64,000 nt of DNA, from contig NZ_FSRM01000002.1 of assembly GCF_900141745.1 (NCBI RefSeq), positions 2,666,001 through 2,730,000 on the forward strand, in the 5' to 3' direction. Below the pieces are notes generated by a model, which was given only the letters and a program-made list of their open reading frames with translations, made no database searches and was not told the origin of the DNA. Made by a program: the position numbers and the translations under genes. Every line of letters begins with the position of its first letter. The stretch's first letter is position 1. This stretch comes from Paraburkholderia phenazinium (lineage in GTDB: Bacteria > Pseudomonadota > Gammaproteobacteria > Burkholderiales > Burkholderiaceae). Shown in pieces: positions 37,362 through 53,280 of the stretch.

Positions 37362-40040
37362 ATGAGCACGCCCCTCAAGACGCTGATCGCGAAACTGAAT
37401 CCGACCTGCCGCCAGGCCACTGAGCGGGCGGCGAGCAATTGCCTGTCGCGCGGTCACTACGAGGTGGACCTCGAGCATCTGTTTCTGGCCTTGCTCGACG
37501 AGCCGGCGAGCGATGCGACGCTGGTGCTGCGCGCAAGCCGTATCGACGCGCATGCGTTGCGCGCCGATCTCGAACGCGAGTTGCAGCGCCTGAAGACGGG
37601 CAACGCGCGCACGCCGGTGTTTTCCGTGCATCTGATCGCGCTGTTCGAGCAGGCGTGGCTGCTGGCCTCGCTTGATGCGCAGATCGGCCGGATCCGCTCC
37701 GGGCATCTGCTGCTCGCGCTGCTGAGCGCACCGGATCTCGCGCAGTTTGCGCAGCGTATGTCGCCGTTGTTCCGCGACGTGCGCGTGACCGATCTCAAGC
37801 ATAAGTTCGATGAACTGACGGTCGGCTCGTGCGAGGCAGAGCGCAATCCTGCGGCGTCCGACGATGCCGATGGCGATGACCGCGATGCCAGCCTGCAACC
37901 GGCACGAAGCGGTGGCCCTTCAAAGACGCCCGCGCTCGACACTTATACGACCAACCTGACGCAACGCGCCCGCGATGGCCATATCGATCCGGTGATCGGC
38001 CGTGAAGCCGAAATTCGCCAGACGATCGACATTCTGATGCGCCGCCGCCAGAACAATCCGATCATGACGGGTGAAGCGGGGGTTGGCAAAACCGCCGTGG
38101 TGGAAGGCCTCGCATTGCGTATTGCCGCTGACGACGTGCCCGCGCCGCTGAAAGGCGTCGCGCTGCACGTGCTGGACATGGGGCTGCTGCAGGCCGGCGC
38201 GAGCGTCAAAGGTGAATTCGAAAATCGCCTGAAAAACGTGATCGACGAGGTCAAGAAAAGCGCGCATCCGATCATCCTCTTTATCGACGAAGCGCATACG
38301 ATCATCGGCGCGGGCGGTCAGGCCGGACAGAACGATGCGGCGAACCTGCTGAAGCCGGCGCTCGCACGCGGCGAACTGCGCACGATTGCGGCCACCACGT
38401 GGAGCGAGTACAAAAAGTACTTCGAGAAAGATGCGGCATTGGCAAGGCGCTTCCAGGTCGTGAAGATCGAGGAGCCGAACGAGACACTTGCGGCGTCCAT
38501 GCTGCGCGGCATGGCGGGTTTGATGGAAAAGCACTTCAACGTGCGCGTGCTCGACGATGCGATTACCGAAGCGGTGCGCCTGTCGCATCGCTATATCAGC
38601 GGCCGTCAGTTGCCGGACAAGGCGATCAGTGTGCTCGATACGGCCTGCGCGAAAGTCGCCCTGGCGCATAGCTCGACACCTGCAACGATCGACGACACGA
38701 AAAAGCGGATCGAGAGAATCGATGCGGAAGTGAACGCGCTCGAACGGGAAGTCGCGAGCGGCGCGGTGCACGACGAGCGTCTTTTGGAACTGCGCAGCCT
38801 GCGGGAAGCGGACGTAACCGCGCTGGCCGCCGGTGAAGCGCGCTACGACAAGGAGCGCGCGCTGGTGTCGGAGATCGGCGAACTGCGGGCGCAAATCGAT
38901 GCAACACGCGGCGGTAGCGCCGACGCGGAGCAGGCCGGGAAAGCCGCGAGTGCGCGTGAGACGCTCGCAGCGCGCGTGAGTGAGCTGCACGCGCTGCAAG
39001 CTGGCCAGCCGATGGTACCGCTGCAGGTCGACGGCCACGTTGTTGCGGAGATCGTCGCGTCGTGGACCGGCATTCCGTTGGGACGCATGGTCAAGGACGA
39101 GATTCAAACCGTGCTGAACCTGCAACCGCTGCTGGGCGCTCGCGTGATCGGCCAGGACCACGCGCTGGAAGCGATCGCCCAGCGCGTGCGGACCGCCAGC
39201 GCGAACCTCGAAGATCCGAACAAGCCGCGCGGCGTGTTCATGTTCGTCGGCCCATCGGGTGTCGGCAAGACGGAAACGGCGCTGGCGCTGGCCGACATCC
39301 TGTATGGCGGCGAACGCAAGATGGTCACGATCAACATGAGCGAGTATCAGGAGGCGCATAGCGTCTCTGGTCTCAAAGGCTCGCCGCCGGGTTACGTCGG
39401 GTATGGCGAAGGCGGTGTGCTAACCGAAGCGGTGCGTCGCAATCCCTATTCGGTGGTGCTTCTCGACGAAGTGGAAAAGGCCCACCCGGACGTGCTCGAA
39501 ATGTTCTTCCAGGTGTTCGACAAAGGCACGATGGATGACGCGGAAGGCCGCGAGATCGACTTCCGCAATACTCTCATCATTCTCACCTCGAACGTCGGTT
39601 CGCAGGCGGTGATGCAGGCGTGTCTGAACAAGAGCGCGGAAGAACTGCCGGGCGCCGATGAACTCGCCGAGACGTTGCGCCCGCAACTGTACAAAGCGTT
39701 CAAGCCGGCTTTTCTCGGCCGCATGAAAGTGGTGCCGTACTATCCGATCTCCGATGACGTGCTCGTGGAGATCATCGAACTGAAGCTCGAGCGGATTCGC
39801 CGGCGCATCGAAGCGAATCACAAGGCGACCTTCGAGTGGGACGAGTCGCTGGTGGATGCCGTATTGGCGCGCTGTACCGAAGTCGATTCCGGCGCGCGCA
39901 ATGTGGACCACATCCTGAACGGCACGTTGTTGCCCGAAGTGGCGCAGCAGGTGCTCGAGCGGATCGCGGACGGCACGTCGCTTGAGCGCATTGCGGTGCG
40001 GGCGAGCGAGGCCGGTGAATTCGAATATACGGTTGCCTGA
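37362..40040 (+). CDS. tssH: T6SS sheath-recycling AAA+ ATPase ClpV (TssH)
   Basis: ClpB-class hexameric ATPase of 892 aa that disassembles contracted TssBC sheath. An N-terminal ClpN domain (about residues 1-150) is followed by a Ser/Asp-rich linker, the first AAA module (Walker A G-E-A-G-V-G-K-T from residue 237, Walker B I-L-F-I-D-E-A), a short middle coiled coil (about 445-530) and the second AAA module (G-P-S-G-V-G-K-T from residue 630, V-L-L-D-E-V-E-K-A-H). The shortened middle domain distinguishes it from ClpB. The ribosome site is weak. Confidence 0.96.
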   Translation: MSTPLKTLIAKLNPTCRQATERAASNCLSRGHYEVDLEHLFLALLDEPASDATLVLRASRIDAHALRADLERELQRLKTGNARTPVFSVHLIALFEQAWLLASLDAQIGRIRSGHLLLALLSAPDLAQFAQRMSPLFRDVRVTDLKHKFDELTVGSCEAERNPAASDDADGDDRDASLQPARSGGPSKTPALDTYTTNLTQRARDGHIDPVIGREAEIRQTIDILMRRRQNNPIMTGEAGVGKTAVVEGLALRIAADDVPAPLKGVALHVLDMGLLQAGASVKGEFENRLKNVIDEVKKSAHPIILFIDEAHTIIGAGGQAGQNDAANLLKPALARGELRTIAATTWSEYKKYFEKDAALARRFQVVKIEEPNETLAASMLRGMAGLMEKHFNVRVLDDAITEAVRLSHRYISGRQLPDKAISVLDTACAKVALAHSSTPATIDDTKKRIERIDAEVNALEREVASGAVHDERLLELRSLREADVTALAAGEARYDKERALVSEIGELRAQIDATRGGSADAEQAGKAASARETLAARVSELHALQAGQPMVPLQVDGHVVAEIVASWTGIPLGRMVKDEIQTVLNLQPLLGARVIGQDHALEAIAQRVRTASANLEDPNKPRGVFMFVGPSGVGKTETALALADILYGGERKMVTINMSEYQEAHSVSGLKGSPPGYVGYGEGGVLTEAVRRNPYSVVLLDEVEKAHPDVLEMFFQVFDKGTMDDAEGREIDFRNTLIILTSNVGSQAVMQACLNKSAEELPGADELAETLRPQLYKAFKPAFLGRMKVVPYYPISDDVLVEIIELKLERIRRRIEANHKATFEWDESLVDAVLARCTEVDSGARNVDHILNGTLLPEVAQQVLERIADGTSLERIAVRASEAGEFEYTVA

Positions 40041-40125: not shown

Positions 40126-41241
40126 ATGCTCATGCCCGCTAACATCACCACGCTGCTGGAACCGGTCAGCGAAACTTCGCCCTGCGGTGACGACCTGTTG
40201 TTCTCAGCCGATTTCGACGCGATCCAGAACGCGCGCCGCTTCGACGACCCCTCGCTCGATCAGGGCGAGTGGGTGACGGAGATCAAGGAAGCGAACTGGC
40301 CGTTTGTCGTCGAGCGCAGCACGAGCCTGCTGAAGACGCAGACCAAAGATTTACGGCTGGCGGTGTGGCTCACCGAGGGCCTGGCGCTCGAGGAAGGCAT
40401 CACCGGCCTGACCGACGGCTACCGGCTGATTACGGGGTTGTCCGAGCGTTATTGGGATCACCTGCATCCGCTGCCCGAAGGGGACGATACCGAATACCGC
40501 CTCGGCAACGTGGCGTGGCTGGTGGGCCGCACGGCTGAGCTACTGCGCGCGATGCCGCTGACCGCGGCACCGGCGGATCTCTACAGCACGGTTGATTGGG
40601 AGGTGGCGACCCACGTCGCTCAGGCGGTCAAGCGCGATCCGGATCACGCTGACGATATCGCCCGGGGCAAACCGTCCGTCGAGCAGATCGAGGCATCGAA
40701 GCGGGCCACGCCGGTGCCGTTCTACGCCGGGCTGCTGGCCGATCTGGCGGCCTTTGAAGCGGCCATGCTGGCGCTCGAGCAGGAGCTGGACCGCCGCGCA
40801 GGCGATTCCGCGCCGAGCTTTCGTCAGGCGAAAGACGCGTATGAAGGGGTGTACCGGCTCGCCGAGCGCTTTGCGCGTGAAGTGGGTGTGACGGCCGAGA
40901 GCGCGGCCAAAGCGCAGAAACCGGAGACCGTCGAGCGTGCCGAGCCCAGTTTCAAGACCGCAACGCAACGGGAGGAACCCGTGTTGACGACCGTATCGAC
41001 GAACTCGCAAGCGAGCATCGCTGGGATTCAGAATCGCGCGCAGGCCGTCGCGCAGTTGCGGGCGGTGGCGCGGTTTTTCCGGAGCACCGAGCCGCATAGC
41101 CCGGCTGCGTATCTGGCGGACAAGGCGGCGGAGTGGGCGGAGATGCCGTTGCATCAATGGCTGTCCACGGTGGTCAAGGACGACGGGTCGCTGGCGCATA
41201 TCCGTGAACTGCTGGGCGTGAAGCCCGAAGAAGGCAAGTGA
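40126..41241 (+). CDS. tssA: T6SS assembly protein TssA
   Basis: Cytosolic cap or assembly protein of 371 aa that coordinates baseplate docking and sheath polymerisation. It carries an N-terminal ImpA domain (S-P-C-G-D-D-L-L-F-S-A-D-F, V-W-L-T-E-G-L-A-L, Y-W-D-H-L-H-P-L-P) and a variable C-terminal region ending H-Q-W-L-S-T-V. It is the last core gene of the rightward T6SS operon. A second ATG two codons in (40132) is an equal candidate for the start. Beyond it a 6-bp interrupted stem lies at 41251-41286. Confidence 0.94.
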   Translation: MLMPANITTLLEPVSETSPCGDDLLFSADFDAIQNARRFDDPSLDQGEWVTEIKEANWPFVVERSTSLLKTQTKDLRLAVWLTEGLALEEGITGLTDGYRLITGLSERYWDHLHPLPEGDDTEYRLGNVAWLVGRTAELLRAMPLTAAPADLYSTVDWEVATHVAQAVKRDPDHADDIARGKPSVEQIEASKRATPVPFYAGLLADLAAFEAAMLALEQELDRRAGDSAPSFRQAKDAYEGVYRLAERFAREVGVTAESAAKAQKPETVERAEPSFKTATQREEPVLTTVSTNSQASIAGIQNRAQAVAQLRAVARFFRSTEPHSPAAYLADKAAEWAEMPLHQWLSTVVKDDGSLAHIRELLGVKPEEGK

Positions 41242-41406: not shown

Positions 41407-41913
41407 ATGACATCTGCAACTGCTGCATCGAAGGGCCGGGCGTGGCCTGAGCGCATTTTTGTGCGGTTCAAGGTGGCCGTGCTGCTCGGAGTCCTGACTG
41501 GATGCAGCGATGGCATTTCACAGTCGGACGTGCAATTCGTCGTAGCCGGGATGCCGGCCCAGTTCCAGTCGCTGCGCATGTACCACACCGTGCCTGACGA
41601 CGCAGCACCTCTCGGCAGCTCGGCTGCTCACGCTGCTGTGCGGCTGCTGCAGGGTTGCGAAGCGATTCTCCGTTTGCCCGGTGGCGAAAAGCGCGAGGCG
41701 GTCACTCTCGGCAGCGACACCGCGGCCTCCTTCGATCTCGACGCCGTCCGCACCGCCGACGGATGGAGCGTGACCTCCGATGGTCTTTCCCCGCCAAGCG
41801 ACAACCCCGTCGCATTTCGGACCCAGTTCACGAACTGCGTGAGTGCGATCCAGGACAAGTATCGGGCTGAACCGGATAAGGCGCCATTTTCGGCGTCGAT
41901 GGTATTCAAGTAG
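41407..41913 (+). CDS. Hypothetical lipoprotein between tssA and the chemotaxis-like module
   Basis: A 168-residue protein of unrecognised family. A hydrophobic stretch ends in V-L-T-G-C, a plausible lipobox with Cys33 from the ATG at 41407 (AAAGAGG upstream); a GTG at 41461 would give a shorter, more typical lipoprotein leader with Cys15. Two more Cys (G-C-E-A-I and T-N-C-V-S) may form a disulfide. Placement between T6SS and signalling genes hints at an envelope role or a ligand-binding partner of the downstream membrane kinase; this is speculation. Confidence 0.65.
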   Translation: MTSATAASKGRAWPERIFVRFKVAVLLGVLTGCSDGISQSDVQFVVAGMPAQFQSLRMYHTVPDDAAPLGSSAAHAAVRLLQGCEAILRLPGGEKREAVTLGSDTAASFDLDAVRTADGWSVTSDGLSPPSDNPVAFRTQFTNCVSAIQDKYRAEPDKAPFSASMVFK

Positions 41914-41960
41914 TCGAGCACCGCAGATGGTTTTAAGTAGTTAAGTAGTGCAGATGATGT
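41905..41960. repeat. Imperfect short repeats at the lipoprotein 3' end
   Basis: AAGTAGT-type units recur three times around 41908-41949 and GCAGATG occurs twice, suggesting slippage at and beyond the stop codon. About 60 bases downstream is the perfect palindrome GCTTCGCGAAGC (42015-42026), which may belong to the leader of the kinase operon. Confidence 0.45.
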
Positions 41961-42114
41961 TTCTTAGGGGTGCAGGCGACGGCTTTGAGCTTTACCTCTT
42001 CGCCAGGCCCTAAAGCTTCGCGAAGCGAAGCCGATATCGTGGCAATGGACAACGAAAATTCCGGCAGAGAACCGTCCATAGGCGTATCACATCACCACTA
42101 CGGGAGGAGAGCGT

Positions 42115-44550
42115 GTGCTGTTTCGCATGATGCGAGGTTGCGCGCGTAATGCTATGTTCAAACGCTTAACGATACAGAATGGGCTCACGCTCACGATCGC
42201 GGGCTATACGCTCGCGTTGATCGCCACGATGCTGGTCGCCGTGCTCGGTCTCAAGCAGAGCAACGATGCGCTTAAGCAGACATATGCGACCGATACGGTA
42301 GCGATCACCCATCTGAAGACGAGTTCCGAGCTGATGCTGCAGGTGCAGCTGGCGCTCGGCAACTACGAGACACTGTTTTCGATGGGTCGCGCAAGCGACG
42401 ACCTGCTGGTAAAGGCGCGCGCCGTGCTCAAGGCGAGCGACGACAACTGGGCGGCGTACCTTGCAAAGCCGCGTAACGCTGAAGAGTCGCGCGCCGCCGA
42501 TGCGGTGCAGGCAGCCCGCGCGGCCCTCATCAAGCAGGCACTTGAGCCCGAGTTCCAGCAACTCTCGCAAAACGACTATTACAAATTCCACACGACCCGC
42601 GGCGAGGCCGACCCGCTCAACGCCCGCTACGCGCAGGCGATGAACGCGCTCGAAGCGTTGCAGGTGGATCACCAGCAGGCGCGCTTCGAACAGGCGCAGG
42701 CGCAGTTTCATCGCCTGATGGTCGGTGCGGCGCTGATCGCACTCGCTGCGCTCGGCATTGGCCTGCTTGCCCGCGCCGTGCTGGCCTCAGTAATTGGACG
42801 CCCGCTCACCCGCATGCAATCGATGATGAGCGAGATCGCATCGAATCAGGACTTCACCCGCCGCGTTCCGGTGGGACGGATGGACGAGATCGGGCGCTCG
42901 ATCGTCGCGTTCAACGAGATGATCGAGAAGATCCAGCAAAGCTCCGCGCTGCTCAAGCAGAAAACCGCGGACATCCAGGCGATGCTGCAGAACATTCAGC
43001 AGGGGATGTTGACCGTCGTCGGCGGCGCGCTGGTGCACGCCGAATACTCGGCCTACCTTGAGGCGATCTTCGAGACGAAGGACATCGCCGGGCGTCCGGT
43101 CATGGATCTGGTGTTCGACAACACTGATCTGAACTCCGATGTGCGCTCGCAGGTCGACGCCACGATTCAGGCCTGCATCGGCGAGGACGCGATCAACTTC
43201 ACCTTCAACCAGCACCTGCTTGTGAACGAGGTCGCGAAGACGATGGCCGACGGCCGCGTGAAGACGCTCGACCTGAGCTGGTCGGCGATCACCGACGAGA
43301 ACGACACCGTCATGCGTCTCATGCTGTGCGTGCGCGACGTGACCGAGCTGCGCCAGCTTGCCGCCGAGACGGGCGAGCAGAAGCGCCGGCTCGAGATGAT
43401 TGGCGAGATTCTCGCGGTCAACGAGGAGAAGTTCCATAACTTCGTCGACAGCGCGACGGGCTTCGTCAACGAAAACGAGCGGATCATCCGCCAGCACACG
43501 CAGGCCGACAGCGAGGCGCTCGCCGAACTGTTCCGCAACGTGCACACGATCAAGGGCAACGCCCGAACCTACAGCCTGCAGCACCTGACGAGCATCGTGC
43601 ACGAAACCGAGCGGCGCTACGACGCGCTGCGCCGCAACGATGTCAGCGAAGAGTGGAATCAGGAAGTGCTGATCGCGGACCTCGAGCGCGTGAAGGAAGC
43701 GATCGAGCGTTACAGGACGATCAACGATGTGAGCCTGGGCCGCAAGGACGGTGGACGTCGCGGCAGCGCCGAGCACTATCTGATGGTGGACCAGGGGCAT
43801 ATCCAGGAGAGCCTGCGCATTCTGGAGGCCGCCGACCCGGTCGACGTTCGCAGCCTGCAGACGATGCGCGATTCGGTGCACCGCAGCTTGCGCATCCTCG
43901 GCACCGAAACGATCGAGGACACGCTCTCGGGCGTGCTCGAATCGCTGCCGTCGCTTGCACGTGAACTCGGCAAGGAGCCGCCCATCGTACGTATCGACGA
44001 CGATGGCTACCGCGTGAACAGGCAGGTGAGCAGCACGCTGAAGAACGTCTTCATGCACCTGATGCGCAACTCGGTCGATCACGGCATCGAGACTGCAGCC
44101 GCCCGCGCCGAGCAGGGCAAACCTGCGGCCGGCACGATCGTCATCGAAGCCGGCGTCGCCCGGGGCGCGCTGCAGATCACCATGAGCGACGACGGCCGCG
44201 GCCTCGCGCTCGGGCGGATTCGGGGCATCGCGAGCGCACGCGGCTGGCTCGACGACGACGCGCAACTGAGCGACGAGCTGGTCGCCGATTTCATCTTTCA
44301 TCCGGGCTTCTCGACCGCTGAACGGATCACGGAAGTGTCCGGGCGCGGTGTCGGCATGGACGCAGTACGGGATTTCCTGAAGCGCGAGAACGGCAGCATC
44401 GAGCTGCGCTTCACGGACGACCGGCGCGGCGCCGACTATCGCCTGTTCGAGATCGTGGTCTGCCTGCCCGAGCGCTGCGCCGTGCACGGCGCAGGTGCGA
44501 CGGACAGGAAAGAAGAGAAGCCGTTGCAGATCGACGCGTTGTCCGCTTGA
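42115..44550 (+). CDS. Membrane CheA-like histidine kinase with Hpt domain, no CheW domain
   Basis: An 811-residue kinase combining a chemoreceptor-like front with a CheA-like back. Membrane helices at about 24-46 and 205-232 flank a helical periplasmic domain resembling four-helix-bundle sensors. HAMP (about 233-285) and a PAS-like region (about 295-410) follow. The Hpt domain has phospho-His477 in N-V-H-T-I-K-G-N-A-R. The ATPase has CheA-type boxes: L-M-R-N-S-V-D-H-G-I-E, D-D-G-R-G-L and G-R-G-V-G-M-D-A-V. The protein ends soon after, so the CheW-binding P5 domain is missing. GTG start with GGAGGAG upstream. First of a five-gene module. Confidence 0.88.
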   Translation: MLFRMMRGCARNAMFKRLTIQNGLTLTIAGYTLALIATMLVAVLGLKQSNDALKQTYATDTVAITHLKTSSELMLQVQLALGNYETLFSMGRASDDLLVKARAVLKASDDNWAAYLAKPRNAEESRAADAVQAARAALIKQALEPEFQQLSQNDYYKFHTTRGEADPLNARYAQAMNALEALQVDHQQARFEQAQAQFHRLMVGAALIALAALGIGLLARAVLASVIGRPLTRMQSMMSEIASNQDFTRRVPVGRMDEIGRSIVAFNEMIEKIQQSSALLKQKTADIQAMLQNIQQGMLTVVGGALVHAEYSAYLEAIFETKDIAGRPVMDLVFDNTDLNSDVRSQVDATIQACIGEDAINFTFNQHLLVNEVAKTMADGRVKTLDLSWSAITDENDTVMRLMLCVRDVTELRQLAAETGEQKRRLEMIGEILAVNEEKFHNFVDSATGFVNENERIIRQHTQADSEALAELFRNVHTIKGNARTYSLQHLTSIVHETERRYDALRRNDVSEEWNQEVLIADLERVKEAIERYRTINDVSLGRKDGGRRGSAEHYLMVDQGHIQESLRILEAADPVDVRSLQTMRDSVHRSLRILGTETIEDTLSGVLESLPSLARELGKEPPIVRIDDDGYRVNRQVSSTLKNVFMHLMRNSVDHGIETAAARAEQGKPAAGTIVIEAGVARGALQITMSDDGRGLALGRIRGIASARGWLDDDAQLSDELVADFIFHPGFSTAERITEVSGRGVGMDAVRDFLKRENGSIELRFTDDRRGADYRLFEIVVCLPERCAVHGAGATDRKEEKPLQIDALSA

Positions 44551-44568
44551 ACGACTTGGAGAAGGGCA

Positions 44569-45309
44569 GTGGTCGAACGATATGGAATCCTGATTGCCGG
44601 ATTGGCGCTCGGCCTGCTGGCTGCGCTCGCGGTAGCGGTCGCATGGCGCGAGCGGCGCCGCGGTGCGCAGGCGCTCGCGCAACTGCGCGCTGAAGCCGAG
44701 GCGCACCACACGGCCGCACTCGCGCAAGCCGACGCTCGGCATCAGGAGCGGGCCGAACAGGAAAAGCGTGAGTACGAGTCGCTGGTTGCGGGGCTGCGCG
44801 ATGACCTCGCCCAGCGGTCGGCGAGCGAGGACGATGCACGCGCGGCGCGCGCCGCCGTGCTCCAGTTCAAGGAGGAATGGGGGCGGCAGGCCGCATCTAT
44901 CGCAGGCGAAGCGATTCGGCTCAGGGAACTCGCCGTGACGTTCGAGCGCTGGCACGAGCAGATGATCTCGCTGATGGAGCAGAACCAGGAGATGCACAGC
45001 AAGAATCAGGAGCTGTCGTCGATCGTCGCGCACGTGCTGATCGTCTCGCTGAACGCGTCGATCGAGGCGGCGCGTGCAGGCGCTGCCGGACGCGGCTTCT
45101 CGGTCGTCGCGAGCGAGGTGCGCACGCTCGCGTCGCGCTCGCAGGATCTGTCGAAGAGCTATCGGGACAGCCTGCATCGCAACGACCTGATCACGACCGC
45201 GACGTTCCAGGACATTCAGGCAGGCGGCAAGATGATCGTCGCGTCCCTCGGCAGCGTCGCGGCGCTCGCGAACCAGCTTCAGACCCAGCTCGAGCAGGCG
45301 GCGACGTGA
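44569..45309 (+). CDS. Short MCP-like signalling protein
   Basis: A 246-residue protein with one N-terminal membrane helix (about 6-26), a coiled coil rich in Ala, Glu and Arg, and a remnant chemoreceptor signalling hairpin: S-L-N-A-S-I-E-A-A-R-A-G-A-A-G-R-G-F-S-V. No periplasmic or HAMP domain is present, so it resembles only the cytosolic tip of an MCP anchored to the membrane. GTG start 19 bases after the kinase stop. It may scaffold the kinase or serve as its input partner without CheW. Adaptation sites were not evident. Confidence 0.8.
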   Translation: MVERYGILIAGLALGLLAALAVAVAWRERRRGAQALAQLRAEAEAHHTAALAQADARHQERAEQEKREYESLVAGLRDDLAQRSASEDDARAARAAVLQFKEEWGRQAASIAGEAIRLRELAVTFERWHEQMISLMEQNQEMHSKNQELSSIVAHVLIVSLNASIEAARAGAAGRGFSVVASEVRTLASRSQDLSKSYRDSLHRNDLITTATFQDIQAGGKMIVASLGSVAALANQLQTQLEQAAT

Positions 45310-45845
45310 TTACCGAGCAAGCGAAAGACAGCATCGAGCGGATCTTCCGCCAGGCCGCGCGTCTGCGCCTGATGGTCGGCGCAGGCGACGCGTGCGACAT
45401 CGTGCACGGGACGCCGCATGACGGCGCGGTGGACGGCGAGCTCATCGTGCTGACGATTTCATCGATTTCTTTCAGGCTCCTGCTGGTCCTGCATTTCGAC
45501 AACGACGACGCGACGCGCGACTACTACCTCGGCAGTGGCGAGGCGACGCTCGAGGAAAGGCTGCTCGAAATCTGCAACCTGTGCTGTGGCGCAATGAACC
45601 AGCAGCTCGTCGGCTATTTTCCGGATCTCGGGATGTCGACGCCGTACGTGCTGAGCGGTCACTGCGTGTCGTATCTGGATCAGTTGAAGCCTGATTTCCT
45701 GGTGTCGTATCGCGTGACGGTCAACGGCGCCGTGCAACTCGGCGCGACGGTGTGCGTGTGCGCCGACGCGCCGCTCGACTTCGTCGCGACCGTCGCCGAG
45801 GTCACGGAACTTGCCGAGAGCGTCGGCGAGCTCGAACTTTTTTGA
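45306..45845 (+). CDS. CheX-like protein
   Basis: A 179-residue soluble protein whose GTG start overlaps the MCP-like stop (GTGA). The region around residues 75-130 fits the CheX/CheC phosphatase fold: E88-x2-N91, a Gly a few residues on, and P113 in M-S-T-P. The E-x2-N pair is the catalytic signature of CheC/CheX/FliY phosphatases that dephosphorylate CheY. A single repeat of the motif is CheX-like. If active, it would reset the CheY at 46855. Overall similarity is weak, so the assignment is by motif. Confidence 0.62.
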   Translation: MITEQAKDSIERIFRQAARLRLMVGAGDACDIVHGTPHDGAVDGELIVLTISSISFRLLLVLHFDNDDATRDYYLGSGEATLEERLLEICNLCCGAMNQQLVGYFPDLGMSTPYVLSGHCVSYLDQLKPDFLVSYRVTVNGAVQLGATVCVCADAPLDFVATVAEVTELAESVGELELF

Positions 45846-45862
45846 TGTGTGAGGAAGGCAGC

Positions 45863-46819
45863 ATGGACATGAACAAGCCGGTCAGCAAGGTACTCGTGCT
45901 CGACGACTGCCCGGCGCATACGGAAGCGATCAAGCGCTTCTGCGACGAGAACAACCTGGTTGGTTTGACGGTAAGGACGCATCGCCTGTCGGCGGTGCTG
46001 CGCTCGAACATCGATCTTGGCGCGATCCTGCTCGCGGAGAACTACGGTGGATCGCCCGCTGAGTGCGCGGCAATCGCGACGCGCATCGATGCGCTGCGCC
46101 CGGAATTGCCGATCATCCTGCGCCGCGACGAGCACGCGACGCTCGACGATCTGCCGCACGCGTTGCGCGAAGTCGTGTGCGCCGCGTACGTCGCGAGCGA
46201 TATGGCGCCGCTGCGCCTCGCGATCGACGAGTACCTGTTCGTTCTGGATTATCCGAACGCGCTCGTGCGCGGCATTACCGAGATCACCGAGTTCAAACTG
46301 GCGAACCTGTTCCGCGATCTGACGGTGACATGGGACACCCCGTGCCTCGTGCGCGACCAGATCATCTACGGCGAGGTGTTCAGCCTGATCGCGCTTGAGA
46401 GCGACTGGTGCCGCGGCTACATGATGGTCCAGACCGACGAGCAGCCACTGCTCGAACTGCTCGGCCGCAAACAGACGAGCGATAGCGTTCCGGATTTTCG
46501 CGATCTCAACAGCGTGCTGGGGGAGCTGACGAACCTGATCTGGGGCGCGTTCAAGGACCGTTATCTCGGCAACGCGCAGGCCGCGCGCAGCCAGGTCCAG
46601 GTGCCGCTCATCATCAATCACAAACAGCGCTACATCTCGTTCGGCACGACCAACCCGCAACTGTGCTTCAAGTACCACGTGGTTGACGAGGCGTCGGGCC
46701 GCTCTGTCGTGTTCGATCAGCGTTTCATTTTCAACCTGAGCTGGTCGCCGGAAGATTTCGAGGAGGGCGCCGACGATGTCGACGCGCTCGTTGCGGCTGG
46801 CGAGCTGGATCTGTTTTGA
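45863..46819 (+). CDS. Degenerate receiver fused to CheX-like domain
   Basis: A 318-residue two-domain protein. The N-terminal half is receiver-like (V-L-V-L-D-D), but the acceptor position is Glu59 (L-A-E-N-Y) and the conserved Lys-Pro is missing, so it is a pseudo-receiver that cannot take phosphate and may mimic the active state. The C-terminal half has a second CheX-type motif, E221-x2-N224, followed by P248. GAGGAAG precedes the ATG. It ends in a Glu/Leu-rich tail like that of the preceding protein (E-L-x-L-F in both), suggesting a common docking peptide. Confidence 0.68.
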   Translation: MDMNKPVSKVLVLDDCPAHTEAIKRFCDENNLVGLTVRTHRLSAVLRSNIDLGAILLAENYGGSPAECAAIATRIDALRPELPIILRRDEHATLDDLPHALREVVCAAYVASDMAPLRLAIDEYLFVLDYPNALVRGITEITEFKLANLFRDLTVTWDTPCLVRDQIIYGEVFSLIALESDWCRGYMMVQTDEQPLLELLGRKQTSDSVPDFRDLNSVLGELTNLIWGAFKDRYLGNAQAARSQVQVPLIINHKQRYISFGTTNPQLCFKYHVVDEASGRSVVFDQRFIFNLSWSPEDFEEGADDVDALVAAGELDLF

Positions 46820-46854
46820 CAAATTGTCTGTCAACGATTTAAGAGGGAAACATC

Positions 46855-47220
46855 ATGGCAAAAATTCTGGTGGTGGACGATTCGAGCACCGTGCGCGACG
46901 AAGTGGCGGGCTTCCTGAGAAAGAATGGCCTCGACGTGGACACGGCTGTCGACGGTAAGGACGGCCTCGCGAAGCTGCGCACGAGCCCGGGAACCCGGCT
47001 CGTGATCAGCGACGTGAACATGCCGAACATGGACGGCCTGACGATGGTCGAGAAGATCCGCGGCGAACTCGCGAATCAGACCGTCAACGTGATCATGCTG
47101 ACGACGGAAAGCAGCCCGGCGATGAAGGAGCGTGGCAAGGCAGCGGGCGTGAAGGGTTGGATCGTCAAGCCGTTCAAGGGCGAAGTGGTTCTCGAGACGT
47201 TCCGTAAGCTCGCGGGCTGA
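46855..47220 (+). CDS. CheY-like response regulator
   Basis: Single-domain receiver of 121 aa closing the five-gene module. All key residues are present: V-V-D-D (Asp8-9), acceptor Asp53 in I-S-D-V-N-M-P-N-M-D-G, Thr in L-T-T-E, and Lys in V-K-P-F-K. It should accept phosphate from the CheA-like kinase and lose it to the CheX-like proteins. There is no flagellar gene in the window, so its target is probably not the flagellar switch; a T6SS component is a candidate by location only. Confidence 0.88.
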   Translation: MAKILVVDDSSTVRDEVAGFLRKNGLDVDTAVDGKDGLAKLRTSPGTRLVISDVNMPNMDGLTMVEKIRGELANQTVNVIMLTTESSPAMKERGKAAGVKGWIVKPFKGEVVLETFRKLAG

Positions 47221-47258
47221 GCGGTCTGTCGAGTTTCTTTATCGCCAGTGCGTCAGGC

Positions 47259-47277
47259 GCCCGCTCATGGAGCGGGC
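47259..47277. terminator. Stem-loop after the chemotaxis-like module
   Basis: GCCCGCTC-ATG-GAGCGGGC, a perfect 8-bp GC-rich stem with a 3-base loop, lies 38 bases after the CheY stop and before the convergent OmpA-like gene. No T-run follows. It is a plausible end-of-operon structure. Confidence 0.45.
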
Positions 47278-47340
47278 TGAAATACTACGACTGTCTGGAC
47301 GAGGCGGGGTCAGTGGGGGATAGCGGGGCGTGCCGCGGCA

Positions 47341-48351
47341 TTACGCACCGCCGCCGCCCAACCCTGCCCGGAACTCGATGCGCCGGTTTCTCGCCCGTCC
47401 ATCGTTCGTATCATTGGAAGCAATCGGCTGATCCGGTCCAACGCCGGTGGTGGACAACTGCTGCGGCGCGATTCCCTTCGACACGAGATACCCCTTGACC
47501 GCGTCTGCGCGTGCCTGGCTCAAGGCGATATTCGACGTCCGGTTCCCCGCGTTATCCGTGTGCCCAATGATATCCACGGTGTTATTGGTCATCTTCGCCA
47601 GCACCGCGGCCATCTGATCGAGAATGGCCTTGCCTTGCGGCGTGAGCGTCGCGCTGCCGGTTTCGAACTCGATGGTCCGGTTAGCCAGCGTCTGGTCGAG
47701 CAGCCCTTGCTGCGAAGCGCTCACGCGCAGGCCGTTCTTGATGGTGTAAGTCGGGTTCAGCGAATTCGCCATATCGCTCGCCAATTGCTGACGTTGCGAT
47801 TCGTTGCTCACTTCGCCCTTCACATCCACCTGCGTGCCGTCGATCTTCAACTGGCCCTTGCTGATCTGCTTCAACTGCGGCCCGATCAGCTTTTGCACAT
47901 TGGCGGTCCAGTTGGGCGGCGTAGCGACATCGCCCACTTCGATCTGATCGACCACGTTGGCCGCGCCGTAGGTGTCGCGCAGGCGCTGCAACACGGCCGC
48001 CTTGGTGGCTTCGTCCGGCACCTTGCCACCCACCACCACCTGACCCGGCGTGGCGTTGGCAGGCGCGGGCATCTGACGGACCGCACCGGTACCTGCACCC
48101 GTGCTCGTCCCGCCCGCGCCAGGTGCCGCGCCGCCGGCCGAGGACTGCGCCGGCAGGACTGTCGTACGGATCTGGGTGCCGCTGTTATCGACCGGTGTCA
48201 CGCTCGCCGGCCCCGAGCTATCGGCAAAGGCCCCTGCGCTGCTGAACATTCCGCCGAGCAGCGCTGCCAGTACAGCAGCAACGGGAACCGCGCGCGCGTG
48301 GCTCAAGAAGCGCGCCGGCGACATCGTCAAACGATCGGTTTTGGCAGGCAT
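47341..48351 (-). CDS. T6SS-associated OmpA-family protein with BON-like domain
   Basis: Exported 336-residue protein. A long signal region with a hydrophobic core ends near A-F-A-D (about residue 44). A Gly/Ala-rich linker follows, then a BON-like module repeated twice (V-V-V-G-G-K-V-P-D-E and D-V-K-G-E-V-S-N-E), and a C-terminal OmpA domain (I-E-F-E-T-G-S-A-T-L-T, I-I-G-H-T-D-N, S-Q-A-R-A-D-A-V, R-N-R-R-I-E-F) that binds peptidoglycan. TssL here lacks such a domain, so this protein probably anchors the complex to the wall. GGGGAG precedes the ATG. It follows tagF by 4 bases on the same strand. Confidence 0.87.
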   Translation of the reverse strand: MPAKTDRLTMSPARFLSHARAVPVAAVLAALLGGMFSSAGAFADSSGPASVTPVDNSGTQIRTTVLPAQSSAGGAAPGAGGTSTGAGTGAVRQMPAPANATPGQVVVGGKVPDEATKAAVLQRLRDTYGAANVVDQIEVGDVATPPNWTANVQKLIGPQLKQISKGQLKIDGTQVDVKGEVSNESQRQQLASDMANSLNPTYTIKNGLRVSASQQGLLDQTLANRTIEFETGSATLTPQGKAILDQMAAVLAKMTNNTVDIIGHTDNAGNRTSNIALSQARADAVKGYLVSKGIAPQQLSTTGVGPDQPIASNDTNDGRARNRRIEFRAGLGGGGA

Positions 48352-48355
48352 CGTC

Positions 48356-49348
48356 TTACTCCCCGGCGAAGGCTTCACGGAACGTGTCGATGCTGACGCG
48401 CAGCGACAGTTGCGGTTGGTCGAGGTAACTGACGAGCTTGCTGATCCCATGGTCGTTTTGTGCGTGATCGTCGATCCACTCGGGGTCGTCGATATCGATG
48501 TTATGTGCGGCGTAAGCCTGCGGGTCGACCACGCTATGCAGCGTCTTCGCCGAGGCGCCGTTAAAGCCGATCACGAGCCGCTCGCGCTGCGCCAGCGTGC
48601 CGATGAAAATCGCGAGTTCGAAATCGGCGCGCGAGACAAACGGCGCGATCAGTTCGAGCCAGAACGCGGCCACGAGGCTGCGATAGAACGGATCGTTCGG
48701 CAGCGGCAGCGTCAGCCCGCGTTCGAGATGCGACGAGCCGCTGTTCATCACCGGCCGCAGCAGCGAGCCGAGCGCCAGCATCGCGCCGCGCAGCCGCACC
48801 GGATGGCCGCTTGCCAGCAACATCTGTTCGAGGCCGGCGAGGGTCTGGTGCTCGACGAAATCGTTGAAGGTGCCGTCGTGCGGATTGTCCGGGCCACCGC
48901 CCACCTCGATCGGCACCTGCGTCTCGCCCAGCGCCTGCAATGCGCCGGCAGGCTCGCTCGGGCTCAATAGCGGCCGCATCTGCGCTGCCACCCGCGACCA
49001 CAGCCGCGCAAACGCGAGCGGGCTGCGGGCCAGGAACGTCAGCGGCTTTTCGACTTCGAGCGCGGTTGCGGCAAGAAACGGAAAGCGACGCGACGACTGG
49101 TCGTGGCTCGCCATCATGTGTCCGGCAATCGCCAGCTTGCTGCGCGAGCCGAGGAAGGCGAAGTGCAACGGCTTGGCGCCTTCGTAGACGATCTTCCAGC
49201 GCGGATCGTCGGTGAGCAGCTCCATCGCTTCGGCGATCCAGCGGTCCAGCGTTTGCAGCAATTGCGGGTTATGCGCGCTCTTGACAAAGTCGCCGCGCGA
49301 CGGAATCTTGCCGAAGTAGGCGATTTGCGCCTGTACGGTTTGCGTCAT
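48356..49348 (-). CDS. tagF: T6SS accessory protein TagF
   Basis: A 330-residue protein with the N-terminal TagF domain (A-Y-F-G-K-I-P-S-R-G-D-F-V-K, F-L-G-S-R-S-K-L-A-I-A-G, S-R-R-F-P-F). TagF proteins act as post-translational T6SS repressors in several species, in some cases through Fha. No fha, ppkA or pppA gene is in this window. The start overlaps the tssM stop by 4 bases (ATGA), which excludes the longer upstream frame. Confidence 0.9.
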   Translation of the reverse strand: MTQTVQAQIAYFGKIPSRGDFVKSAHNPQLLQTLDRWIAEAMELLTDDPRWKIVYEGAKPLHFAFLGSRSKLAIAGHMMASHDQSSRRFPFLAATALEVEKPLTFLARSPLAFARLWSRVAAQMRPLLSPSEPAGALQALGETQVPIEVGGGPDNPHDGTFNDFVEHQTLAGLEQMLLASGHPVRLRGAMLALGSLLRPVMNSGSSHLERGLTLPLPNDPFYRSLVAAFWLELIAPFVSRADFELAIFIGTLAQRERLVIGFNGASAKTLHSVVDPQAYAAHNIDIDDPEWIDDHAQNDHGISKLVSYLDQPQLSLRVSIDTFREAFAGE

Positions 49349-52300
49349 TGCGCACCCCCTGTATTCGAGTTCGCAGTCACAGCGGCATTCGGGTTCGCTT
49401 GCAGCGCGGCGGAACCGTTCGCCGAGGCCGGCGCGGGCGAACTGCCGCCTCCTGCCGGGCCGGCGGCTCCGGACGCGCCGGTCTGCGTGGCGTTGACCGA
49501 ATTCGCCGCCGCGCTCACATCCGCCACCGAGGACGGCAGATGCAGGCCGCGCAGGCTTTGCTGCTGTGGCGCGTCGCCACTGCCGCTCGACGGCTGCGAG
49601 GTGCTGATGATGCGCATGCTCACCGCCACGGTCACGTTGCCCTGCGTCCACGACAGATCGAACGTGCCGTCCGGCTGGCGTTTGCGCTGCGCCGAGTTGA
49701 TCAGCTTCTCCAGACCGTAGCGTCCCGGCTCGTTGACGAACTGGATCGTGCGGCCGTCGAAGGTGGTCGCGGACAGCGTCGCCCCCGGCGAGCCGGACGG
49801 ATTCGGCCAGACAAAGTTGGTCCACTGGGGCGGCGTGTTGCGGTAGCGCAGCTGCTGGCCATCGATCGCCAACGTGTACTCCGTCGTGCCGGTGCTTGGC
49901 TGCGGCAGGATCTGGAACACGGTCTGCGGTCCGGCCGCACCACTGCCTTGAGCCGCGCCGCTGGCAGCGCCGCCGGAGAGCGGGGCGACCCAGCGCGCGA
50001 AGCCGCTCGTGAAGTCAGGCGTCAGCGCGAGACCCATGTCGCCCCATGTGCGGGCCGTGAGCGTGTCGCCGCGGCGCACTGCGAGCGGCCCAAGCGTCGT
50101 GCCGACAAACTTCGCGACCGAGCCATCGGGACCGAACACCTGGGCGATTTCATCCGCGCCGGCTTCCACCTTGGCGTCGCCAGCGAACGGATACTTGTTC
50201 GCGAGCGAGCTCTGGAACGGCTGATACACCTGCGCATTCCACACCTTGTTCACTTCGACGCTAGCCGGCTGGATCACCACCGCGAACGCCTGCATCAGCG
50301 GACGCACCAGCAGCGGACGCAGCGACCTGCGTTGCGAATCGGTCAGGCCCGTCAGCATCTGCTCGTCGACATACTTCAGCGAATCGGCCAGCTCGGAGCC
50401 GTTGCCGTCGAGCGTCTGCTGCATCAACTGACGCGCACCCGGTCCCGGATCGCCCTGGTTCTTGATCACGTTAAAGCGGGTGCGAACCTTGGACAGCGTG
50501 TCCATATAGCCCTGCAGCATCGATCCGTTGTCCTGCTTGACCACGATCCGGCCGAGTGCCGAGAACTCCTGGCCAATCGGCCCCATCGGCAATTCAACCG
50601 GGTTGCCGTTGATGTCGATGTTCGCGTTGATCTGGCCCACCGGCGACGACGTCCCACGGTTGAACAGCTGCTTGAACCAGCTCGTGACGCCGGTCTGCGC
50701 GCCCTTCACGCCAGCGCTGAAGAGCGACGGGTTGTCCCACGAAGTCTGGTCGTAAGCGGTGTCGAGCACCTTGCGGATCGGCGAGTCCTGCGGGTCGCCC
50801 AGGCGGTTCATTGCCTCCACGGCCTGGTTGAAGGTGCCGAAGTTCTGCACCGCGATGCCCTGCATGAACTTCTCCCAGTGCATCGCGTACTCGGTCTTGT
50901 ACATCGCCACCAGCGCTTTCTGGATCTGCTCCGGACTGCCTTCGAGCGTCAGGTCGTCATGCGCCGAGGTATTGAGCACCCAGTCCTTCGCCTGCAGTTC
51001 CTTGGTCGCGGCGTCACGGATCGCCGGCTGCACGTACTGGAACCATGCATCCCGCGTGAACGTACCGGGGATTGCATAGCTGCCGGCAATCAGGCTGGTG
51101 TTGTTGTCGCCCACAATGCGGGCGATCGTCATCGGCGCGAAGCGGGTCGAGGCGCGCGCCTTGATCTCTTCGTACACGCGCTGGCGGGCCGGCATGCCGC
51201 GCACCACACGGCGCAGGTTCTCGCGCGTCTGGTCGACGAGCGAAAGATTCTGGTCGATCATCGGCCAGTCGTCGTCCGAGACGCGCGACAGGTAGAAGGT
51301 AATCATGCGTTCGGCGCTGCGAATCATCTCGTCGCGCGGCATGTTGCCCCGGTTGGTTTCGAGCCAGCCACGCCAGAAGCGCGCCACCTGATCGGTCAGG
51401 TGGGCCGTTTCGACGTGGCGCTTGTCGCCGAGCATCAGGTAGGTCTTGAGCGCGTTGTAGGCGTCTTCCACGTTGGTGGGGGAGGCGTCGCTATACAGGC
51501 CGCCCTGGCTCGTCGCCACCATGGCGGAGGCGTGCGACGACACGGGCACCGCACCGGAGTCCGGCGTGCGCGTCATCGGCGAGAGCTGCTCCGGATGCGT
51601 GTTGACGTCTTTCAGGAAGCCTTCGAGATTCTGCGCCACCGGGTTCAGCATGATCTGCCGCACGCCGTTGTAGTACTCCGTCAACAGATGCTGCTCGAGA
51701 CGGTCGCCCTGGTAGAGACCGAGCGAAACTTCCAGCGGCCGGTCGCGACGGAACTGTTCGAGCTGGTCGATGCGGTCCTCGAGAATATCCATGGCCTCGA
51801 GGCGCGATTGCAGGTCGTTGCGGTTCTGCTGCAGACGCACCACGTTGTCGAGGTCGGCCTGTACGTTCGAGGCGAGCTGCTGGTTGTTGACCGTCGACCA
51901 TGTCCAGCCTCCCAGCGCCAGCGCGAGCACGGCAACGAAGGCGAAGAACGTCCCATAACGCATACGCGTCTTGGCGGGGCTGGCAAACTGCTTGACCGTT
52001 TGCCGGTCGGCAAAAATGACCTTGGAGAACAGGTCGCGCAGGAAAAAGCCGTTCTTCGAAAACGCGCTGCTCGGTTTGGGGATGCTGCCTGAATCGAGCC
52101 CGAAGCGGGTGGCAATGCGCTGTGCCGCGGCGCTGTTGGTTTCGCCTTCCTGCAGCGCGCTCGTGAAGTAGAAGCCGCGGAAAATCGGCTTGTACTGGAA
52201 CGGATTGGTTTCGAACAGCGTGGCAAGGAACGAGCGCAACGCGGGCTTGATCGTGGAGAATTCGAGCGGAAAGCTCAGTTGCCCCGGCGAGAGCTTGTTG

Positions 52301-53280
52301 CCGCGGCTGATCGACATCTGCGCGACGCTGATCTCTTTCAGGCCGTCGTACAGCTCCTCGAAGCGCTCGTCGAACTGGGCCACGACATCGCGCTTCTCGT
52401 CCGGCTCGTAGGGCAGCGTTGCGCCCCACACACGGTCGTACTCCTGGCGCTCGCTGCCGCTGAAGAATTCGGTGAAGCCCGTGATCAGGTCGGTCTTCGT
52501 AAACATCACGTACACCGGCGCGAACACCTCGAGCTTCTCGGTCAGTTCCTGCACGCGCTGGCGCAGATTTTTTGCCAGGTTGATGGCGAATTCCGGCCGG
52601 CTGCTGGTCAGCTCGGCAATGCTTGCCGTCACGATGATGCCGTTGATCGGCGCCTTCGGACGATGGCGCTTGAGCAGGCTCAGAAAGCCCAGCCATTCCG
52701 TGCGGTCTTCCTCATGCACCGAATAGCGGCCTGCCGTGTCGAGCAGAATGCCTTCAGTGGTGAAGAACCAGTCGCAGTTCCGTGTGCCGCCAATCCCGTG
52801 GATGACGGCGTTGTTCTTGTCGGCGAACGGGAACTGCAGGCCCGAGTTCAGCACGGCGCTGCTTTTGCCGGCCGCCGGATTGCCGATCACGATGTACCAC
52901 GGCAATTCGTACAGCGCCGCGCCGCCCGAGACCTGACCGATCTTCGAGGTCTTGATGGTTTTCACGGCATCCACGAGGCGCGTGCGCAGCGCGTCGAGTT
53001 CCGCCTGACGGGCGGGCGTCGCCGCCGGACCGCCCTCGGTCTGCTTCTCCGCCTGCTGCTCGAGCATGTCGCCGAGCTTGCGGTTGGCGCGCCGCGCCGC
53101 GAGCCGGCGCCACAGCCACACCACGAACAGCAGCGCCAGCACGGCGCCCAGCGCGACGGCCGGCCACAACGGATCGATCTGGAAGGTGTCGGCGGCGATG
53201 AACAGCACGGCAGCGAGCGCGAGCAACCCGATGATCGAGAGCGTGCGAGAGTGGGTCAGCACTTTGAAGATGCGTTGCAT
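49345..53280 (-). CDS. tssM: T6SS membrane complex protein TssM (IcmF family)
   Basis: Inner-membrane protein of 1311 aa bridging TssL and TssJ. Two membrane helices near the N-terminus (about 14-32 and 39-57) are followed by a cytosolic NTPase-like domain with intact Walker A G-N-P-A-A-G-K-S at 133-140, then a third membrane helix near 450 and a large periplasmic region. An Ala/Gly/Ser-rich low-complexity tail of about 60 residues closes the protein and is longer than usual. It is co-transcribed with tagF and the OmpA-like gene downstream. Confidence 0.96.
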   Translation of the reverse strand: MQRIFKVLTHSRTLSIIGLLALAAVLFIAADTFQIDPLWPAVALGAVLALLFVVWLWRRLAARRANRKLGDMLEQQAEKQTEGGPAATPARQAELDALRTRLVDAVKTIKTSKIGQVSGGAALYELPWYIVIGNPAAGKSSAVLNSGLQFPFADKNNAVIHGIGGTRNCDWFFTTEGILLDTAGRYSVHEEDRTEWLGFLSLLKRHRPKAPINGIIVTASIAELTSSRPEFAINLAKNLRQRVQELTEKLEVFAPVYVMFTKTDLITGFTEFFSGSERQEYDRVWGATLPYEPDEKRDVVAQFDERFEELYDGLKEISVAQMSISRGNKLSPGQLSFPLEFSTIKPALRSFLATLFETNPFQYKPIFRGFYFTSALQEGETNSAAAQRIATRFGLDSGSIPKPSSAFSKNGFFLRDLFSKVIFADRQTVKQFASPAKTRMRYGTFFAFVAVLALALGGWTWSTVNNQQLASNVQADLDNVVRLQQNRNDLQSRLEAMDILEDRIDQLEQFRRDRPLEVSLGLYQGDRLEQHLLTEYYNGVRQIMLNPVAQNLEGFLKDVNTHPEQLSPMTRTPDSGAVPVSSHASAMVATSQGGLYSDASPTNVEDAYNALKTYLMLGDKRHVETAHLTDQVARFWRGWLETNRGNMPRDEMIRSAERMITFYLSRVSDDDWPMIDQNLSLVDQTRENLRRVVRGMPARQRVYEEIKARASTRFAPMTIARIVGDNNTSLIAGSYAIPGTFTRDAWFQYVQPAIRDAATKELQAKDWVLNTSAHDDLTLEGSPEQIQKALVAMYKTEYAMHWEKFMQGIAVQNFGTFNQAVEAMNRLGDPQDSPIRKVLDTAYDQTSWDNPSLFSAGVKGAQTGVTSWFKQLFNRGTSSPVGQINANIDINGNPVELPMGPIGQEFSALGRIVVKQDNGSMLQGYMDTLSKVRTRFNVIKNQGDPGPGARQLMQQTLDGNGSELADSLKYVDEQMLTGLTDSQRRSLRPLLVRPLMQAFAVVIQPASVEVNKVWNAQVYQPFQSSLANKYPFAGDAKVEAGADEIAQVFGPDGSVAKFVGTTLGPLAVRRGDTLTARTWGDMGLALTPDFTSGFARWVAPLSGGAASGAAQGSGAAGPQTVFQILPQPSTGTTEYTLAIDGQQLRYRNTPPQWTNFVWPNPSGSPGATLSATTFDGRTIQFVNEPGRYGLEKLINSAQRKRQPDGTFDLSWTQGNVTVAVSMRIISTSQPSSGSGDAPQQQSLRGLHLPSSVADVSAAANSVNATQTGASGAAGPAGGGSSPAPASANGSAALQANPNAAVTANSNTGGAQ

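Follow-up and report, generated by a model that had tools for sequence, protein, structure and literature searches.

A CheW-less chemotaxis-like gene cassette, near-universal in its genus and probably acting on motility, found in a type VI secretion locus of Paraburkholderia phenazinium

We analyzed a window of 64,000 nt from Paraburkholderia phenazinium (assembly GCF_900141745.1, contig NZ_FSRM01000002.1, positions 2,666,001-2,730,000; genome G000 of our set), in which a cassette of five genes lies within a type VI secretion system (T6SS) locus. The cassette encodes a CheA-like kinase (KIN), the signalling tip of a methyl-accepting chemotaxis protein (MCP), two CheX-type proteins (X1 and X2) and a CheY-type response regulator (Y). 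An earlier note on this DNA had described such a set between tssA and a block of ompA, tagF and tssM; all five plus-strand open reading frames (ORFs) were found, their domain identities agree, and the position was confirmed from the flanking domain matches. The genes are packed head to tail with short gaps, as the note had stated, although instead of several GTGA overlaps there is a single one, at the MCP/X1 junction, the other junctions being gaps of 18, 17 and 35 bases. Genes for CheW, CheR, CheB and flagellar proteins are missing beside the cassette, as had been claimed; this was read from ORF lists and neighboring genes, with no domain scan of the whole window.

Pfam analysis of KIN detected the Hpt (8e-8) and HATPase (3e-9) domains, and its best NCBIfam matches are CheA models, with scores below the cut-off. 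The kinase had been described as lacking a CheW domain, which Pfam bore out, with no CheW match at E<=10 in any of the five cassette proteins and neither CheR nor CheB among them. His477 and the ATP-site motifs are conserved across relatives. The MCP tip plus the next helix is nearly invariant in the alignment of relatives; inspection of this alignment revealed that the tip departs from the usual motif and that the stretch after it is unusual and nearly invariant.

The two CheX-type proteins also agree with the earlier description, X1 by its predicted fold and X2 by its Pfam CheX domain together with receiver-fold matches. The Pfam CheX match is significant for X2 (3.5e-12) and not significant for X1 (0.039). 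A PDB search with a sequence profile of X1 gave no match; the AlphaFold model of X1, with a predicted local distance difference test (pLDDT) score of 86.7, had the CheX structure 3hm4 as best PDB match (E 4.5e-7), and X1 is thus predicted to adopt the CheX fold. The X2 model (pLDDT 78, predicted template modeling score 0.57) matched receiver domains, with weaker matches to CheC-like chains, and the X2 sequence profile matches CheC/CheX chains at ~1e-6. The first part of X2 carries the receiver-fold matches and, as read from the alignment, has no Asp at the phosphorylation site. The Glu/Asn pair that is catalytic in CheX phosphatases is invariant in both proteins (alignments of 31 and 41 rows). 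In Y, Asp53 and Lys105 are conserved, and Trp102 stands where E. coli CheY has Tyr106; the solved chains nearest to Y are those of chemotaxis CheY proteins. X1 and X2 also share a C-terminal GEL(E/D)LF tail (45825-45842 and 46799-46816), nearly invariant in relatives and of low confidence in the structure models, which is perhaps a docking motif.

Table 1. Features of the cassette and its surroundings (window coordinates).
Feature	Position	Strand	Size and remarks
KIN, membrane CheA-like kinase with TarH sensor, HAMP, Hpt (His477) and HATPase	42115..44550	+	811 aa
MCP, membrane-anchored MCP signalling tip (MCPsignal) without sensor domain	44569..45309	+	246 aa
X1, CheX-fold protein (predicted), Glu88/Asn91	45306..45845	+	179 aa
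X2, fusion of pseudo-receiver and CheX domain, Glu221/Asn224	45863..46819	+	318 aa from the ATG used
Y, single-domain CheY-type response regulator (Response_reg), Asp53, Trp102, Lys105	46855..47220	+	121 aa
Sigma-28-like promoter TAAA-N15-GCCGATAT	42011..42037	+	perfect match to consensus
Block absent from the T6SS locus of relatives (apparent insertion)	41915..47344	+	blastn against L205-L208
Possible remnant of the end of a Fic-like gene	47283..47306	+	24 bases, 87.5% to L205 and L208, E 0.025
ClpV-like ATPase (T6SS), left neighbor	37362..40040	+	named from sequence and neighbors
TssA (ImpA_N, PF06812), left neighbor	40126..41241	+	Pfam
Small lipoprotein-like ORF, last gene left of the block	41407..41913	+	present also in the 4 nearest empty loci
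OmpA-domain protein (PF00691), right neighbor	47341..48336	-	start provisional
TagF (PF09867), right side	48356..49300	-	start provisional
TssM/IcmF (IcmF domains), right side	49345..53280	-	domain matches

To describe the distribution of the cassette, we used the best 80 of 272 encoding stretches from an X2 profile search of named species genomes (the named loci), together with sets of 144 genomes of the genus and 349 of the order. All five genes occur in order in 78 of the 80 named loci, the exceptions being L078, which ends at a contig end, and L060, which is without KIN, MCP and Y. The same order was present in 85/85 genus X2 loci besides the window's, each taken with up to 10 kb on either side and some clipped by contig ends. 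Because the order recurs in both groups, the five ORFs are not chance ORFs. MCP and X1 overlap or touch in 140 of 163 cases. Within the genus, X1 is encoded by 133 of the 144 genomes and X2 by 86; comparison of the lists by hand gave 47 genomes with X1 and without X2, and 27 of these 47 X2-less loci were examined, including the broken cassette of G130. Around the 80 named loci no conserved neighbor was found outside the cassette, the commonest family occurring in 27 at varying distance, and no conserved flagellar neighbor was seen. The cassette is an autonomous unit, near-universal in the genus and with its gene order kept.

T6SS linkage was searched with this window's genes alone as queries, and very different T6SS types may escape such a search. 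Besides the window's own cassette, one of the 85 genus X2 loci is T6SS-embedded, that of the close relative G115, and one of the 80 named loci, L002, which is the same metagenome-assembled genome; among the 27 X2-less loci examined, there was neither a nearby T6SS gene nor an X2 (0/27 each). Within 10 kb of the other named cassettes, we found T6SS genes about 2 kb away in L018, a distant Hcp in L030, a short TssC fragment with a VgrG (named from the ORF list) in L039 and a ClpV-like ATPase alone in L078. L018 is Burkholderia catarinensis, and its T6SS genes are of another kind, apparently independent of the window case. Because T6SS clusters are frequent (TssC in 138 of 144 genus genomes), the proximity in L018, L030 and L039 was judged compatible with chance. 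Four genomes, G022, G038, G040 and G119, have no TssC match, with G119 retaining one ImpA_N match, yet they carry full-length five-gene cassettes.

The related T6SS loci were examined in 15 relatives, picked, among the matches listed, for strong TssA similarity and, wherever a TssC-TssA spacing was given, for one like that of this cluster. None of the 15 holds cassette genes at this place; tssA and ompA are neighbors in 14, and the ompA-tagF-tssM block is inverted in L212. Elsewhere in the same genomes, X1 is present in 13 and X2 in 10. In blastn comparisons with the four nearest of these loci, L205-L208, homology stops at 41911-41914 and restarts at 47345-47357. In these loci a Fic-like gene stands at the cassette's place, between the lipoprotein-like ORF and ompA, so labelled from its HPFVDGNGR-type motif. 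The 24-base similarity listed in Table 1 is suggestive only of a remnant of this gene.

A T6SS partnership was rejected on the rare linkage, the empty T6SS loci of relatives and the cassettes in TssC-less genomes. The earlier note had proposed a phosphorelay that tunes the T6SS. The relay part is plausible, with His477, Asp53, Lys105 and the Glu/Asn pairs conserved, and the part in which it acts on the T6SS fails on the same three grounds; the five-gene module sits mostly away from T6SS genes, the outcome that the note itself had named as speaking against its proposal. The cassette is very probably independent of the T6SS, and its location here looks like an accident of one arrival.

The genome in fact carries two cassettes. 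The second, resident one is encoded on the same replicon (L245:6782-10898, corresponding to G000:C2:3788781-3792897) and consists of KIN, MCP, X1 and Y; X2 is absent. Both cassettes are also present in G115, where the resident copy is again X2-less, and this genome and G115 are the only ones of the 144 genus genomes with two copies of X1. The sensor of the window kinase is TarH and that of the resident kinase 4HB_MCP. A kinase tree was built from 38 of 42 chosen rows, L005, L008, L030 and L063 having no extracted kinase ORF (151 such ORFs were extracted from 165 loci). It placed the resident copy with P. phenazinium and near relatives (support 100/100), while L002 and Trinickia terrae grouped with the window copy (100/99); protein identities are concordant. 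Because the resident copy groups with close relatives and the embedded one with Trinickia, the latter looks like a foreign second copy that would have arrived horizontally.

Upstream of the kinase in relatives, the pattern GTCAY-N6-GTCAY-N9..12-(G/A)ATAAT occurs in 56 of 131 distinct regions and nowhere else in the same loci, a background of 5.1 Mb counting both strands. It is also found before 13 of the 27 X2-less loci and at the resident copy. A slightly stricter form gave two hits in each of four genomes, one of them at the cassette and the other, in 4/4, before a LacI-type regulator and a look-alike ABC operon, whose best NCBIfam matches are 2-aminoethylphosphonate transporters (two genomes searched). 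A PHO4-family phosphate transporter (3e-80) is encoded near the resident copy. The GTCA half-sites, arranged in tandem with a period of 11 bases ahead of GATAAT, resemble a PhoB box; production of the cassette under phosphate limitation is thus probable in the many relatives that have this promoter, and PhoB control of the resident-type cassette appears likely.

In place of this pattern, a sigma-28-like promoter precedes the window copy. The perfect form TAAA-N15-GCCGATAT occurs at seven sites in the 8.3 Mb genome, against two for a reversed control, and the site of the window copy is kept in L002 with a change in the spacer only. Two of the six further sites lie before an MCP gene and a GGDEF-type gene, respectively (named from sequences). 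A variant form has three sites, before a CheY-like and CheC-like pair, before an MreB-like gene and in an element by the resident cassette (likewise sequence-named). Sigma-28 may be the regulator of the window copy. As a general rule such control was ruled out: forward boxes upstream of the kinase in relatives were no better than in random windows, in a scan that set aside 14 loci lacking an assigned kinase start as well as L060 and L078, which have no kinase. A reverse-strand sigma-28-like box, TTAACGGC-N11-AAACTTTA, is present in 51 of the 131 regions and 0 elsewhere in the same loci, for example ~115 bases before the kinase frame in L020. It points away from the cassette, no conserved gene was seen behind it, and the window copy is without it; the box may mark a divergent small transcript or serve as a binding site. 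Words common upstream of the kinase were also considered as a motif and proved to be the kinase coding start.

With regard to output, FliM is encoded by 12/12 X2-positive genomes of the order, versus 238 of 349 overall, and by 142 of the 144 genus genomes. The two genus genomes without FliM are G129, which has no X1, and G130 (L273), a 4.3 Mb genome in which the kinase is shortened and its frame broken, an MCP match is lacking and the frame of Y is broken as well. Together with the resemblance of Y to chemotaxis CheY proteins, these patterns favor a motility output, which we regard as somewhat probable.

A number of observations weigh against a phosphate-regulated motility relay. The FliM co-occurrence in the order has a chance probability of ~0.01 by a hand calculation uncorrected for relatedness, and FliM is still present in 10 of the 11 X1-negative genus genomes. 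G130 is small, fragmented and possibly decaying, and some of its breaks may be sequencing errors; because of this state of the genome, the breakdown of its cassette is not necessarily a consequence of the loss of flagella. As to regulation, the matches of the ABC and phosphate transporters fall under the NCBIfam cut-offs, and the promoter counts come from related, non-independent genomes. The window copy is without the GTCAY promoter, and 75 of the 131 upstream regions likewise lack it by the strict pattern. The remaining four perfect sigma-28-like sites of this genome lie before genes that do not look related to motility.

On balance, the cassette is best read as an autonomous, CheW-less chemotaxis-like phosphorelay that probably acts on motility, may often be phosphate-regulated and lies in the T6SS locus incidentally. 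The periplasmic domain of KIN, which differs between the two copies, would set autophosphorylation of His477 together with the tethered MCP tip. The phosphoryl group would then pass from His477 to Asp53 of Y, and X1, plus X2 where present, would strip it through the CheX Glu/Asn site. Phosphorylated Y would act on motility, most likely at the flagellar motor; both the transfer from KIN to Y and this target are inferred. In many relatives, the PhoB-box-like promoter would lead to synthesis of the cassette under phosphate limitation. A Trinickia-related second copy, with another sensor and a sigma-28-like promoter, would have landed between tssA and ompA in the lineage of this genome. A more specific version is, as a whole, less likely than not: a CheW-independent unit with a membrane sensor kinase under a tethered MCP tip, PhoB-induced under phosphate limitation in much of Burkholderia sensu lato, altering flagellar behavior through its own CheY and held back by one or two CheX brakes.

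Other explanations were weighed against this relay. A T6SS role of the embedded copy, at least for this lineage after the move, is very improbable; the copy would respond to an event at the envelope, and its CheY-phosphate would act on T6SS assembly or expression. The embedded cassette is full length in both the window and G115, with its promoter kept in both, and co-option may have followed insertion, yet the 15 empty loci, the single embedded case among 85, the full-length cassettes of TssC-less genomes and the copy's own promoter-like site all speak against such a role. Less remote, though still unlikely, is a non-flagellar output, in which phosphorylated Y would act on biofilm, envelope or phosphate-uptake machinery as a phosphate-stress regulator apart from motility. 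The PhoB-box-like promoter, the phosphate transporter near the resident copy, the want of a conserved flagellar neighbor and the absence of CheR and CheB from the cassette would all suit such a regulator; they are countered by FliM in every X2-positive genome of the order, by the broken cassette of FliM-less G130, by the closeness of Y to chemotaxis CheY among solved structures and by a sigma-28-like site close to each of the two cassettes of this genome, although that of the resident copy points away.

A role as accessory to the main chemotaxis system overlaps the preferred relay in part and is unlikely. Here the MCP tip would dock in CheA/CheW arrays, and X1 and X2 would drain the common pool of CheY-phosphate. 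In favor of it, the MCP tip is strongly conserved although the kinase has no CheW domain, the CheX-type active sites are kept and X2-less cassettes are common (47/144 genomes). The cassette nevertheless retains its own kinase and CheY, and its tip is off the usual motif and runs into the unusual, nearly invariant stretch.

Chemosensory systems comprise flagellar and alternative-function classes. Like CheA-CheW-MCP systems, the autonomous relay has an Hpt kinase with a CheA-like ATPase, an MCP tip, CheY and CheX-type phosphatases; unlike them, it lacks CheW, CheR and CheB, its kinase has no CheW domain, and its sensor is on the kinase instead of the MCP, which is a tethered tip. In predicted fold and Glu/Asn pair, X1 and X2 resemble the CheX/CheC/FliM family (CheX of Thermotoga, Borrelia and Vibrio; the CheC-like SO_3915 of Shewanella), from which they differ in that X1 falls under the Pfam threshold and X2 is fused to a pseudo-receiver. 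T6SSs can be regulated by a Ser/Thr kinase-phosphatase pathway; the cassette lies in a T6SS cluster here but, in contrast to T6SS-linked regulators, has no conserved linkage and a different chemistry. The tandem GTCA half-sites with their 11-base period in many relatives resemble the box of the Pho regulon (PhoR-PhoB), whereas the window copy is without the box.

In the accessible part of the literature, which included PMC5789663 and PMC8222739 and left most subscription papers outside the search, no description of the cassette was found. Within that literature, a near-universal cassette of a large genus is thus seemingly without a described function. Its case cautions that one T6SS neighborhood is no guide to function, and it raises the question as to what an MCP tip does without CheW or a CheW domain. 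If the promoter reading is true, the cassette would link phosphate starvation to swimming.

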